The translations under genes and the position numbers were made by a program. A model generated the notes under the pieces. That model saw nothing but the letters and a program-made list of their open reading frames with translations, did not search any database and had not been told where the DNA came from. This document shows, piece by piece, positions 34,203-38,975 of a stretch of 46,851 nucleotides of DNA. Source of the stretch: Burkholderiales bacterium (GTDB lineage Bacteria; Pseudomonadota; Gammaproteobacteria; Burkholderiales; JABEVD01); the NCBI GenBank assembly GCA_019753155.1, contig JAIELG010000037.1, positions 1 through 46,851 on the forward strand, in the 5' to 3' direction. The stretch's first letter is position 1, and every line of letters starts with the position of its first letter.

Positions 34203-36305
34203 ATGGTCACCGTCACTACGCCCCGCGAAAGCCTTTCGCTCTGGCTCGAATCCCTGTCGCCCGGATACAGTCGACAGGAAATCGAATTCATACGTCGCGC
34301 GGCCCAGCATGCCGCAGGGGAGGACAGCCTTCTTGCCAGCGGGGAGGGCGCGCTGAGTCATGCGCTCCTGACTGCTTCAATCCTAGCAGAGATGCATCTG
34401 GATTACGAGGCGGTCGCTGCGAGCCTGCTCCTTCATTGCAAGGATATCGGGCAGGATTTAGGGGAAGGGGTGGAAAGCCTCGTCGAAGGCGTCATGCGCT
34501 TTTCTTCCGTGGAACTTGCGGAAACCGAAAAGGGGGAACTCGAAGGCCTGCGCAAGATGCTGCTCGCGATCGTGCAGGATATCCGGGTGGTGCTCATCAA
34601 GCTGGCCGATCAACTCCAGATGCTGCGTTATCTGGTTGGGCGCGAAAATTTCGACATGAGGCTCAAAGCCGCCATCGAGACCCGCGACATCTATGCGCCG
34701 CTCGCCAACCGCCTCGGCATCTGGCAGATCAAATGGGAACTCGAGGATCTCTCCTTTCGCGTCCTCGAACCCGAAATCTACAGGAAAATCGCCGGACTCC
34801 TGGACGAGAAACGCAGCGATCGCGAGAAATTCATCGAAACGGCCATATCCGAGCTGAAAGGGGCGCTCGATGCGGCCGGGATCCGTGGGGAGGTTTCGGG
34901 GCGCCCCAAGCATATTTACAGCATCTACAAGAAAATGCAGCGCAAGAACCTCGTGTTCGATGCGATTTACGATGTCAGGGCGATCAGGGTTCTGGTCGAC
35001 GATGTGAAGGATTGTTATGTCGTCCTCAGCATGGTTCACGATATCTGGACCCCCATTCCGGGGGAATTCGACGACTACATCGCGAAACCCAAGGACAACG
35101 GCTACAGCTCGCTGCACAGCGGCGTCATCGGACCCGAAGGCAAGGCGCTCGAAGTCCAGATCAGGACTTTCGACATGCACCAGGCCTCCGAAATGGGAGT
35201 CGCGGCGCATTGGCGTTACAAGGAAGGCGGCAAGCGCGACTTCCGCTTCGAGGAAAAAATCGTCTGGCTCAGGAAGCTCATGGGCTGGCGGGACGAATTG
35301 AGCGAGTCGTCGAATCTTGCGCAGGAAATCAGGAACGGGCTTTTCCAGGACACGGTTTACGTCTTGACCCCGCAAGGCAAGGTCGTCGATCTTCCGGGGG
35401 GCGCGACGCCGGTGGATTTTGCCTACCATGTGCATACGGAACTCGGACACCGCTGCCGCGGGGCGAAGGTCGACGGCGCGATCGTGCCGCTTAACACCGC
35501 ACTGAAGACGGGGCAGCGCGTCGAGATCATTTCCGCCAAGCAGGGCGGCCCCAGTCTCGACTGGCTCAACCCCGAACAGGGCTTCGCGAAGAGTTCGCGA
35601 GCGCGCACCAAGATCCGGCAATGGTTCAACAGCCGCAACATCGAGGCGAGCGTGGCGCAGGGACGTCTTCTGCTCGAAAAGGAGTTGAAGCGCTCGGGCC
35701 GAAGCGGTTATTCGCTCGAGAAAATGGCGGATCATTTCAAATTCGCGAAAGTCGAGGATTTCCTGGCCGAACTCGGAAGAGGCGGGTTCACAAGCCGCCA
35801 GATCCAGTCTTTTTTGAGGGAAGATGCGCCGGAGCCTGAAAAGCTTCCGGTGATGAAACGCAGCGCTTCCCAGAAATCAGGCGAAGTGTTGATCGTGGGG
35901 GTGGACAAGCTGCTGACTTTGCTTGCAAAATGTTGCAAGCCTGTGCCGCCCGACGAGATCGTCGGGTTTGTCACGAGAGGTCGCGGGGTCATGATCCACA
36001 GGAGAAGCTGCTCCAATGTCGCCAACCTCGATGAAGCGAGGCTGCTGGATGCGCAGTGGGGCATAGCGGAAGGGAAGTTCCCGGTCGAGGTCGTGATCGA
36101 AGCTTCCGACAGGCAGGGACTCCTGAGGGACATATCCGATGTCCTGTCGCGGGAAAGAGTCAACGTGACGGCAACCCGGACGCTCAGCAGGAAGGACAGG
36201 GCAGACATGCGCTTCACGCTGGAGGTTTCCGATCTTGGACAATTGCGCAAGGTGCTCGGACTGATCCTGGATGTGCCCGGCGTTGTACATGCGGGCAGGC
36301 GATAG
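34203..36305 (+). CDS. relA: GTP pyrophosphokinase RelA
   Basis: Ribosome-associated (p)ppGpp synthetase, 700 residues. The N-terminal hydrolase-like domain has lost the HD pair (LLLHCKDIGQDL where SpoT has HDVVED-like residues), so it is RelA rather than SpoT. Synthetase domain about 215-340 (RPKHIYSIYKKMQRK, KPKDNGYSSLHSG, EVQIRTFDMHQASEMGVAAHW). TGS about 370-430, zinc-finger-like CCKPVPPDEIVGFVTRGRGV near 575, ACT domain about 630-700. ATG 34203 is 25 bases from nrdJ on the other strand, so each promoter must lie within the other gene's start or coding region. Confidence 0.93.
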   Translation: MVTVTTPRESLSLWLESLSPGYSRQEIEFIRRAAQHAAGEDSLLASGEGALSHALLTASILAEMHLDYEAVAASLLLHCKDIGQDLGEGVESLVEGVMRFSSVELAETEKGELEGLRKMLLAIVQDIRVVLIKLADQLQMLRYLVGRENFDMRLKAAIETRDIYAPLANRLGIWQIKWELEDLSFRVLEPEIYRKIAGLLDEKRSDREKFIETAISELKGALDAAGIRGEVSGRPKHIYSIYKKMQRKNLVFDAIYDVRAIRVLVDDVKDCYVVLSMVHDIWTPIPGEFDDYIAKPKDNGYSSLHSGVIGPEGKALEVQIRTFDMHQASEMGVAAHWRYKEGGKRDFRFEEKIVWLRKLMGWRDELSESSNLAQEIRNGLFQDTVYVLTPQGKVVDLPGGATPVDFAYHVHTELGHRCRGAKVDGAIVPLNTALKTGQRVEIISAKQGGPSLDWLNPEQGFAKSSRARTKIRQWFNSRNIEASVAQGRLLLEKELKRSGRSGYSLEKMADHFKFAKVEDFLAELGRGGFTSRQIQSFLREDAPEPEKLPVMKRSASQKSGEVLIVGVDKLLTLLAKCCKPVPPDEIVGFVTRGRGVMIHRRSCSNVANLDEARLLDAQWGIAEGKFPVEVVIEASDRQGLLRDISDVLSRERVNVTATRTLSRKDRADMRFTLEVSDLGQLRKVLGLILDVPGVVHAGRR

Positions 36306-36344: not shown

Positions 36345-38537
36345 ATGGATTTCGAAGCCGTATATATCAGGACAAGCAGGGGCGAAGCGGAACTCGGGAA
36401 CGAGCAGCTTGCGCTGGAATTGCACGACATTCTTTCCCGTATAGACGGCAAGTCGGATGTGCGCCGATTGATGCAGGATGCTTCATTCTGGTCGGAAGAG
36501 ACGTTCGAATCCGCTTTGAAGGAACTCCTGGAGCAGGGCTGCATACGGCTCTTCGCAGCCGAAGAGACCGAAGTTCGGGAGCCGGCAACTCGACAGGAAG
36601 AAAACCGCAGCACGGGGAAGAGCAAATTCGCCCAATCGAAGCGTACCCTGATCGCCAGCGTGCTTTTTCTGGATATCGTCGAATACACCAAGCAATCCGT
36701 CTCCGATCAGTTCAGGATCAAGGAAGATTTCAACCGCCTGCTTTCGGATCTGATCCGCAAGATACCCGAAGACGATCGCATCATCATCGATACGGGAGAT
36801 GGCGCTGCGCTGGGTTTTCTGGCCGATCCGGAGGAGGTGCTGTTCATCGCGATCAAGCTGCGCGACGCGCTGGAAGCGAACGACCACAAGGATCATCCCG
36901 ACCTGTATGTGAGGATGGGCATCAATCTCGGCCCCGTCAAGCTGGTTGCGGACATGAACGGGCGGGAAAATCTGATCGGCGACGGGGTCAACGACGCCAA
37001 CAGGGTCATGGGTTTTGCCAGGGGCGACCAGATTCTGGTGTCGCGCTCCTTCTACGACGTGGTGAGCCGCCTCTCGAACGAGCATTACGGCCTCTTCAAG
37101 TATCAGGGCATACACAAGGACAAGCACAGGCGAGAGCACGAAATCTATGAGGTGGCCGGGGGCGAGAAAACGCCTCGCGAGGAAAAGGTCGAAGAGAAAA
37201 CCGAAGAAGAAGTCAAGGCCGAAAGACTCGAGAAAATGCAGGCGAGGCTCGATGCCGCAGCCAAGGCGGAGGCCGACGCCAAGGCGGCGATGGCTGCCCA
37301 GGAAAAGGCGAGAGAAGTGCTCGAAGCCGAAATGCGCAAAAAGGCCGAAGCCAGGATCGCAGCCGAGAAGGCTGGCGTCCCGAAAAAGCGTTCAGGCGTT
37401 CTCAAACTCATCCTGATCGCGGCTGCCGTTCTTATCGTCATCGTGGCGGCGCTGCTGCCTTTCGTTCCCCTGGAATTTGTCGCGAAAAATGCAGCCGTGG
37501 TCATCGCCGATAAAACCCAGGAAACCGTGACTATAGAAAATGCTTATTTTTCTCTGTTCCCAACGCCGAGAATCACGTTGAAGCAGGTTTCGGTCGGCCA
37601 GGATCTGAAGATCGCGAAAATGACCGAAGCGTTGTCCATGCCGGGCTCGAAAGCGGCAGGAAGGTTTGTCCTTGAGGGCGTAACGGCGAACCAGGATACC
37701 CTTTCCAGGCTTTCTGGATGGGGCGGCCAGCCGCTCGCCTTGACGATTGAACTGATCAACGTCAATTTGTCCCTGAACGGGGTGGCGCTTCCGCTCTTCG
37801 GGGGCGAAATCGATCTGACCGACGAAGGCGCATTCGTGCGTGCGCTGGTTTCGAGCGAAGGCATGAAAGCGCAAATCCTGCCGGGGGATTCCGGCGCGCA
37901 AATCGAACTTTCAGCCAAGAACTGGAAACTGCCTATGGGGCCGGATTGCCCCTGGGAAGACGTGCATGCCAAGGCGGTTGCGAAGGGCAACGAAATCAAT
38001 ATAGGCGAACTTGATGCAAGTGGTTATGGCGGAGACTGGTCCGGATCGGCGCGGATTTCATGGGGTTCAGGCTGGCATGCGGAGGGGAGCTTCAAGGGAA
38101 AAAATCTCGATCTGGGCGCCTTGATGCCGTTTTTTTCGGCAGACGCGAGGCTCAAGGGCGCCTTGCAATTCAATGCCGGATTCGCTTCTGTCGCGGGCAG
38201 CTTCGAGAAACTCTTCGATTCACCCCGCCTCAAGTCGTCCTTCAGCATCAAGGACGGCGAGATTTCCAATGTCGATATCGCCCAGGCCATCAAATCGCCT
38301 TCGCCTGACGGGACAAGGGGGGGCGAGACCAAATTCGACAGTCTTTCCGGAATCTTTGCGCGCTCCGGAGTGGAGTACCATTTCGATCAGTTGAAACTTG
38401 CCTCCGGACTCCTGAAGGCGGTCGGAAATGTCGATGTGCGCAGCGGAAAGCTGGGGGGCAGAATGGAAGTCGATCTCAACCGCATGCACGCGCCCTTAAC
38501 GCTTGGCGGCAGTCTTTCCGAGCCTGTCGTTCGCTGA
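36345..38537 (+). CDS. Class III nucleotide cyclase domain fused to AsmA-like periplasmic domain
   Basis: A 730-residue membrane protein with an uncommon layout. About 1-75: small winged-helix-like domain (LSRIDGKSDVRRLM). About 100-265: class III adenylate/guanylate cyclase domain; both metal Asp are visible (VLFLDIVEYT, IDTGDGAALGF), and the transition-state Asn/Arg lie in GDGVNDANRVMGFARGDQIL. About 270-345: charged, coiled-coil-like Glu/Lys/Ala linker. About 353-375: a single membrane segment. About 385-730: AsmA-type domain opening ENAYFSLFPTPRITLKQVSV and ending with repeated beta-rich segments. Start ATG 36345; GTG 36342 is possible. The catalytic part is cytoplasmic and the AsmA part periplasmic, implying envelope-to-cAMP or cGMP signalling. 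Function inferred. Confidence 0.82.
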   Translation: MDFEAVYIRTSRGEAELGNEQLALELHDILSRIDGKSDVRRLMQDASFWSEETFESALKELLEQGCIRLFAAEETEVREPATRQEENRSTGKSKFAQSKRTLIASVLFLDIVEYTKQSVSDQFRIKEDFNRLLSDLIRKIPEDDRIIIDTGDGAALGFLADPEEVLFIAIKLRDALEANDHKDHPDLYVRMGINLGPVKLVADMNGRENLIGDGVNDANRVMGFARGDQILVSRSFYDVVSRLSNEHYGLFKYQGIHKDKHRREHEIYEVAGGEKTPREEKVEEKTEEEVKAERLEKMQARLDAAAKAEADAKAAMAAQEKAREVLEAEMRKKAEARIAAEKAGVPKKRSGVLKLILIAAAVLIVIVAALLPFVPLEFVAKNAAVVIADKTQETVTIENAYFSLFPTPRITLKQVSVGQDLKIAKMTEALSMPGSKAAGRFVLEGVTANQDTLSRLSGWGGQPLALTIELINVNLSLNGVALPLFGGEIDLTDEGAFVRALVSSEGMKAQILPGDSGAQIELSAKNWKLPMGPDCPWEDVHAKAVAKGNEINIGELDASGYGGDWSGSARISWGSGWHAEGSFKGKNLDLGALMPFFSADARLKGALQFNAGFASVAGSFEKLFDSPRLKSSFSIKDGEISNVDIAQAIKSPSPDGTRGGETKFDSLSGIFARSGVEYHFDQLKLASGLLKAVGNVDVRSGKLGGRMEVDLNRMHAPLTLGGSLSEPVVR

Positions 38538-38975
38538 TTTTTCGAGGAAGTCCGAGATTTCCTTGTGGATCGCGCGTTCTTCCTGATCGTATGCGAAATT
38601 GTTGGGATCGAATGCGCGTGCGAGCATGCCGAGCGCAACGAAATAAATGACGCCGATACCCACCCCCGTCCAGTAGCCCAGAAACATGTCGATGACCGTT
38701 GCGATCGTCCCGCACAGATGCAGGACTGTGGCCGCCCGTCCGAAATCCTTCGCGGCATGCGGCATCGAGTAATAATGCCCGTACCGCTCCAGCATGGCGT
38801 TCGCAGCCTCCGAAAGCTTCTTCGAACGCAAATCCACTTTCCTTGCTTTCAAGCCGGATAAGGGCATGAGCAGAAGCAGCGCGCAAAGAATCAGGGTCGC
38901 CCAGCTCCATAATTTCGAGAAGAAGATCGCGCCGATGGCAAGGATGCCGACAAAGAGTGAGATGGCTAAAAACAT
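38496..38975 (-). CDS. Hypothetical four-helix membrane protein
   Basis: A 159-residue protein with about four membrane segments: 3-20, 25-42, and two between about 80 and 116 (TVLHLCGTIATVIDMFLGYW, VIYFVALGMLARAF). A soluble basic C-terminus follows (FDPNNFAYDQEERAIHKEIS). The ATG at 38975 has GAGGAG upstream. I do not recognise the family. Its last 42 bases overlap the 3' end of the cyclase-AsmA gene on the opposite strand, unusual for this compact but rarely overlapping region. Confidence 0.72.
   Translation of the reverse strand: MFLAISLFVGILAIGAIFFSKLWSWATLILCALLLLMPLSGLKARKVDLRSKKLSEAANAMLERYGHYYSMPHAAKDFGRAATVLHLCGTIATVIDMFLGYWTGVGIGVIYFVALGMLARAFDPNNFAYDQEERAIHKEISDFLEKSANDRLGKTAAKR

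Follow-up and report, generated by a model that had tools for sequence, protein, structure and literature searches.

A class III nucleotide cyclase joined through one membrane helix to an AsmA-type domain: a candidate receptor-type enzyme of the Burkholderiales

A 46,851-nucleotide stretch of Burkholderiales DNA (GenBank assembly GCA_019753155.1, contig JAIELG010000037.1; the whole stretch is called the window here) carries a gene whose 730-residue product joins, in this order, a winged helix, a class III nucleotide cyclase, a long helix, a membrane helix and an AsmA-type domain (36345..38537, forward strand; from the open reading frame, Pfam and an AlphaFold model). We lean slightly towards the view that this protein is a single-pass, receptor-type class III nucleotide cyclase, with the short AsmA-type groove as its predicted periplasmic sensor. 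This view builds on the domains and their order, on the catalytic residues and their conservation, on a common branch of the fused cyclases and on sister cyclases with another outer domain; the cellular topology, dimerisation, activity, product, ligand and direction of control are what we infer from these.

In such an enzyme, a cytosolic cyclase homodimer would make a 3',5'-cyclic nucleotide. When the periplasmic groove binds a lipid or an envelope partner, the two chains would shift in spacing or rotation, and this change would travel along first the membrane helix and then the long helix, reaching the cyclase from its C-terminal side. The winged helix would serve as a protein-docking domain. 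The parts are known; their combination and the surrounding family are undescribed as far as the open-licence literature shows, which agrees with an earlier sequence-only reading of this gene, whose author knew of no such characterised system, and is not proof of absence from print.

Domain architecture

The gene could start at GTG 36342 or at ATG 36345 and has its stop at 38537; the ATG is favoured because relatives start at the same MDxxxVYxRT. Pfam profiles recognised Guanylate_cyc over residues 104-242 (29.4 bits against a cut-off of 21.9) and AsmA, with its best stretch at residues 517-650 (35.2 bits against 29.8). A full-length AlphaFold model, built from a 53-row alignment, reached a mean predicted local distance difference test score (pLDDT) of 88.7 and a predicted template modelling score (pTM) of 0.53, the latter meaning that the mutual placement of the domains is not predicted. 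In the model, residues 1-70 form a small alpha/beta domain, followed by the cyclase at about 100-272. A helix of 56 residues spans 287-342, one of membrane type 353-373 and a short one 377-391, while about 20 strands make up the region 399-730.

The 56-residue helix (37203..37370, forward strand) is rich in Ala, Glu and Lys across nine aligned orthologues and is a probable coiled coil between cyclase and membrane, judging by the modelled helix and its composition. The single membrane helix (37401..37463, forward strand) was recognised from the model and its hydrophobic sequence, and has positive residues on its N side. The protein is predicted to cross the membrane once, with the AsmA part in the periplasm and the N-terminal parts in the cytosol. 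The sequence-only reading had named a cyclase with its metal Asp pair and Asn/Arg intact, an AsmA-like C-terminal part, a winged-helix-like N-terminal domain and one membrane helix; all four were borne out at the positions it had given, the membrane helix as a prediction.

The cyclase domain

The class III nucleotide cyclase domain (residues 98-273; 36636..37163, forward strand) was delimited with Pfam PF00211, VIA-align and a residue table. In VIA-align, the predicted model matched the fold of Ma1120 of Mycobacterium avium (Z 21.0, root-mean-square deviation (rmsd) 1.9, 159 aligned residues), and a Foldseek search with the model returned Rv1900c and Ma1120 at E 3.6e-10. The metal Asp pair (Asp110 and Asp152), Asn216 and Arg220 are all in place. 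Of the 37 AsmA-fused cyclases, 36 retain all four catalytic residues, as do 27/30 cyclase rows without AsmA, each set including a few duplicate rows. Judged by these residues, the enzyme looks intact.

Class III cyclases work as homodimers, and those of the guanylyl type carry Glu and Cys at the two sites that determine base choice. In Ma1120 base selection is assigned to K101 and D157; the adenylyl type has Lys together with Asp (or Thr), and guanylyl variants include Gly, Thr and His (from passages of PMC4215837). By alignment to Ma1120 K101/D157, the corresponding residues of the window protein are Ile148 and Asn209, which fit neither the Lys plus Asp or Thr of the adenylyl type nor the Glu plus Cys, or its variants, of the guanylyl type. 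The choice between cyclic AMP (cAMP) and cyclic GMP (cGMP), which the sequence-only reading had offered as the product, is therefore not readable from the sequence. Ile or Leu with Asn occurs in 37/37 fused rows, and the rows without AsmA have Ile or Leu in 30/30 and Asn in 29/30. Rv0386 of Mycobacterium tuberculosis, an active enzyme, likewise departs from the standard pairs and includes an Asn in its own. Three PycC pyrimidine cyclases have selecting residues other than those found here (in a part of PMC11224242), and we draw no conclusion from this.

Orthologues were compared domain by domain for the ratio of nonsynonymous to synonymous substitution rates (dN/dS), which lies at 0.03-0.15 in the cyclase and at 0.22-0.33 in the AsmA part; a pair without synonymous change and a saturated pair gave no ratio, distant pairs lie near synonymous saturation, and close pairs rank the domains identically. 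Constraint is strong on the cyclase and weaker on the AsmA part, the pattern of a conserved output and a faster-evolving sensor. An enzymatically dead cyclase, serving as a binding or dimerisation domain, would fit the non-standard base-selecting residues as well as the relatives from which the cyclase domain is missing. With the Asp pair, the Asn and the Arg kept in 36 fused copies out of 37 and a cyclase ratio of at most 0.15, we regard this as very improbable.

Reality and distribution of the fusion

The architecture is present in all nine genomes of the genus, a count that is the same for the family, in eight of them in one frame, and in the ninth (G007) it is split by contig ends. Among 300 genomes of the order, 134 had some match at 1e-5, and at least 12 join both parts in a single protein, namely the nine of the genus, including the cut G007, together with G137, G282 and G194. 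Profiles found cyclase and AsmA in one frame in 27 of the 30 loci first examined in family f25; with eight further genomes checked, the fused cyclase is present in at least 35/120 genomes of that family, and in family f48 in one of four. Across 369 genomes of the class, 22 had a match at 1e-10, and none of the class matches listed holds both parts in one frame outside the order. A match was also found in a metagenome-assembled genome (JAJZRS010000006.1), and plasmid records gave no match at 1e-10.

A frameshift, a mis-assembly or a chance joining of two genes, which the sequence-only reading had itself raised as a possible undoing of its claim, is ruled out by these independent genomes of three families; we found nothing in its favour and give it practically no weight. 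The fusion is real.

The AsmA-type part

The AsmA-type beta domain (residues 377-730; 37473..38534, forward strand), predicted to be periplasmic, was identified by Pfam AsmA, a profile match to TamB and the model. Pfam AsmA matches at E<=0.01 in 25/25 aligned members, which also gave matches to YhdP (seven), DUF748 (three), DUF2125 (two), TamB (one) and OprB (one). In a sequence search against solved structures, the profile of this part matched TamB (E 0.01) and nothing else at E<=1. Modelled alone (387 residues, 25 rows), the part reached pLDDT 87.4 and pTM 0.76. Foldseek returned nothing at E<=0.001, with Vps13 at E 0.23. The VIA fold comparison was led by porins and other curved sheets at Z about 9, a level too general to be telling, and TamB or AsmA structures were absent among the rows listed. 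A chorein-N lipid-transfer domain has been placed at the start of AsmA and TamB (Levine 2019, in a passage of PMC6791001). In our comparison, the N-terminal domain of Atg2 aligned to model residues 38-161 (Z 7.0, rmsd 4.0, 111 aligned), a level that the tool calls common and that porins exceed.

The strand spacing in such a groove is 0.48 nm per strand, so that about 20 strands would give a length of about 9.6 nm, one continuous groove being assumed. The TamB rod measures 16 nm and is itself called too short (in a passage of PMC6791001), a comparison that argues against bridging of the periplasm by this domain alone; the general statement that AsmA proteins bridge membranes, on which the sequence-only reading had drawn, does not carry over to this protein. 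PA2708 of Pseudomonas aeruginosa, an AsmA-like protein of 361 residues, is judged by its authors too short for transport or for crossing the periplasm, and is dispensable for growth (in passages of PMC10900882). The modelled groove looks too short to bridge the periplasm, and a short outer part suits sensing better than bridging.

The N-terminal winged helix

The N-terminal winged-helix domain (residues 1-72; 36345..36560, forward strand) is defined by alignment, profile matches and a model with pLDDT 92-96. A profile built from 20 relatives of residues 1-75 matches winged-helix regulators of the PDB, the best being MJ223 (E 1.6e-4), with MarR and AsnC types at higher E and a PqqD-type domain weakly (E 0.11). 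Pfam winged-helix families match several of the 20 members; the window's own copy gave no Pfam match at E<=0.1. In the model, a strand-helices-strand order fits a helix-turn-helix core with flanking strands. The fold search with the full model was filled by cyclases, and the winged-helix identity rests on the sequence profiles together with the model.

The third helix is acidic, with a net charge of -4 in the window copy and a mean of -1.6 over the 20 rows (range -5 to +1). The basic recognition helix expected for DNA binding is thus lacking, which favours docking to a protein over binding to DNA, and protein docking is the most likely role of the domain.

Of the 16 AsmA proteins from other families that we examined, 14 begin with a domain homologous to residues 1-75; the other two are L061, which ends at a contig edge, and L059, which has no winged-helix match. 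The domain occurs in 145/300 genomes of the order at E<=0.001, and once only in the window's genome. It also heads a response regulator (L097, by its Pfam receiver domain; L087 and L100 likewise by eye), a coiled-coil cyclic-nucleotide-binding protein (L086, by Pfam) and proteins of about 160 residues (L090 and L092).

Sister cyclases and the wider AsmA family

In an unrooted cyclase tree made with a careful method (61 rows, six of 67 having been dropped: L057 and L039 as long or broken, and four duplicates), a branch supported at 98/91 has on one side the cyclases fused to AsmA, from all three families. The sister cyclases mostly consist of a cyclase, one membrane helix and a C-terminal PEGA domain. 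The membrane helix follows the cyclase in 29/31 sister rows, duplicates included, and PEGA was matched at E<=1e-3 in 12 of 26, with a PEGA-like end visible by eye in 21 of the 26. The window's genome has such a sister of 358 residues (L002/L062, G000 contig C57), its PEGA match just under the cut-off, and the other eight genomes of the genus have matching copies. In this subfamily, therefore, the usual arrangement is a cyclase on one side of a single membrane helix and, on the other, an outer domain that can be exchanged.

The AsmA part belongs to a wider family in which a winged helix is followed by a coiled coil, which can reach about 1000 residues, and then by a membrane helix and AsmA; the cyclase is optional there. 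Outside the genus, the cyclase mostly sits between the long coiled coil and the juxtamembrane segment. In an AsmA tree made with a quick method (66 rows, weakly resolved), the cyclase label changes seven times, a count inflated by two rows labelled as lacking a cyclase (L071 and L130) that end at contig edges. L129 (G121) and L132 (G390) are nested there among cyclase-bearing rows, with coiled coil replacing the cyclase. Topology tests on this tree gave, by the approximately unbiased test (p-AU), 0.168 for the three groups together and 0.515 for f25 with the window's genus, so neither grouping is rejected and neither is shown as a clade. The histories of the cyclase and the AsmA part are thus partly distinct, and the AsmA tree lacks the resolution to tell one insertion with losses from several exchanges.

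A link in f25 between the fused cyclase and a protein of winged helix, coiled coil and cyclic-nucleotide-binding domain was considered and found no support. Near full length, this protein is present in 11/120 f25 genomes among the matches listed. Five of the eleven have a fused cyclase (G340, G344, G369, G398 and G409) and four a complete cyclase-less AsmA protein (G121, G253, G390 and G410); the remaining two, G364 and G383, were left out of the comparison. Four neighbouring genes of this kind lie in G340 (C58, 75497-80681) and in G369 (C59, 36050-41232).

Neighbouring genes

A gene for a RelA/SpoT-type protein (relA; 34203..36305, forward strand; from Pfam and locus comparison) lies directly upstream of the cyclase gene. 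In 9/9 genomes of the genus the two are on the same strand with a gap of 33-39 nucleotides, and they are predicted to share a transcript, which we consider probable. The linkage was not seen in 20 loci from outside the genus, and relA was set aside as a general partner. These data bear on a reading in which the AsmA part is a mere membrane or envelope anchor that positions the cyclase, the input being cytosolic, for example through the winged helix or the adjacent RelA. Such a cytosolic input would be in keeping with the constant presence of relA within the genus and with a winged helix that also heads response regulators and cyclic-nucleotide-binding proteins. A conserved groove domain of 350 residues would be a costly anchor, however, and as the relA linkage was not seen in those outside loci we hold this reading to be unlikely.

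The gene at the 3' end encodes a membrane protein of 159 residues (38496..38975, reverse strand; from the list of reading frames, Pfam and locus comparison) and overlaps the cyclase gene by 42 nucleotides. The sequence-only reading had suggested this protein as a partner. It is a conserved neighbour within the genus and was not found in the 20 outside loci; being convergent, its gene is not co-transcribed with the cyclase gene, the same-strand neighbour being relA, and the suggestion is without support. Outside the genus, no conserved neighbourhood emerged among 16 clustered loci, where neighbour families were common to at most three.

In nine f25 loci, two of them near copies, a second AsmA-like protein is encoded in a frame directly upstream of the cyclase-AsmA gene (L043, 10977-12740, reverse strand; also L113, L122, L124, L125, L131, L163, L167 and L169), and is a candidate partner. 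The window's genome has three cyclases above the cut-off and ten cyclic-nucleotide-binding domains, the latter being possible receptors of the signal. Its third cyclase is a protein of 744 residues (L080, G000 contig C48), whose N-terminal region looks, by eye, CHASE2-like, and its neighbour FecR-like.

Sensor or working part

The main rival to a periplasmic sensor reverses the control: the AsmA groove would do the work, handling lipids at the inner membrane, and would be tuned from the cytosol by winged helix, coiled coil and cyclase, acting as regulators or as sources of a local signal. Several of our results weigh against the sensor, and the first of them on this side. First, the constant core of the wider family consists of winged helix, coiled coil, membrane helix and AsmA, the cyclase being the optional element. 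Indeed, 13 of the 16 AsmA relatives from other families, chosen among the order's matches, have no cyclase (one of the 13 is truncated at a contig edge). A cyclase-independent role follows for the AsmA part, of which the cyclase may be a passenger or regulator. Moreover, seven complete f25 proteins combine winged helix and AsmA with no cyclase match (L155 to L161, from G121, G390, G253, G410, G372, G388 and G400); all seven belong to genus g75, in which most of the members checked have the cyclase. Second, within the cyclase itself, the pair Ile148/Asn209 departs from the known types, and the single exception to the catalytic residues, L107, has Ser in place of a metal Asp and Cys in place of the Arg, which probably makes it an inactive copy. 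The second AsmA-like protein upstream in the nine f25 loci also speaks for a groove that works.

Against a working groove stand the faster evolution of the AsmA part, with the cyclase the most constrained domain, the length of the groove, apparently insufficient by itself to span the distance to the outer membrane, and the sister cyclases, which bear PEGA instead of AsmA. All together, we consider the reversed control unlikely and retain, with the slight preference stated above, a receptor-type cyclase with an AsmA-type sensor.

Tentatively, and with more doubt than for the receptor itself, we propose a further step. An AsmA-type lipid-transfer groove may have been recruited as the ligand domain of a cyclase, reporting lipid occupancy or flow at the outer face of the inner membrane by a cyclic nucleotide that is possibly neither cAMP nor cGMP; and the wider family of winged helix, coiled coil, membrane helix and AsmA may be an unrecognised class of envelope sensors with exchangeable outputs.

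To our knowledge, how cells measure and control phospholipid traffic to the outer membrane is an open question. If the sensor reading is true, envelope state could be converted directly into an internal signal, and the AsmA-cyclase fusion offers a direct, assayable readout in which a ligand of the groove should change the cyclase rate. Among the proteins most favoured as carriers of phospholipids to the outer membrane are several AsmA-like ones (in abstracts and in passages of PMC10900882). The results also point to a large unnamed family that ties AsmA-type domains to cytosolic parts, and to a cyclase subfamily of non-standard base-selecting residues with different outer domains, PEGA or AsmA.

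Comparison with known systems

The nearest solved class III cyclases are Ma1120 and also Rv1900c and Rv1264, which have in common with the window cyclase the fold, the metal Asp pair and the Arg. Ile148 and Asn209 stand here in place of Lys101 and Asp157 of Ma1120. In the window protein the cyclase precedes the membrane helix; the best-known membrane cyclases have the two in the opposite order. The window cyclase has the usual Asn, which Ma1120 lacks (Ala164; in a passage of PMC4215837).

With AsmA, TamB, YhdP and YdbH of E. coli and PA2708 of P. aeruginosa, the protein shares Pfam AsmA and one membrane helix followed by a beta-rich domain, and the size of its AsmA part is close to PA2708. It differs by an extensive N-terminal region in the cytosol that includes a signalling enzyme; the AsmA-like proteins of P. 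aeruginosa are described with an N-terminal membrane helix (in passages of PMC10900882).

Closer at hand, the cyclase - membrane helix - PEGA proteins represented by L002 belong to the same cyclase subfamily, with 56% identity between the window cyclase and the paralogue in its own genome, and have the same order of parts; they differ in bearing PEGA for AsmA, in giving no winged-helix match and in being set apart from the fused cyclases by the branch of the cyclase tree described above. L046 (1250 residues) and L048 (856 residues) have a homologous winged helix, membrane helix and AsmA part, and differ in having no cyclase and a far longer coiled coil. The natriuretic-peptide receptor GC-A consists of an outer domain, one membrane helix, a coiled linker and a class III cyclase; we take the window protein to follow the same plan, with the chain order reversed and an unrelated outer domain.

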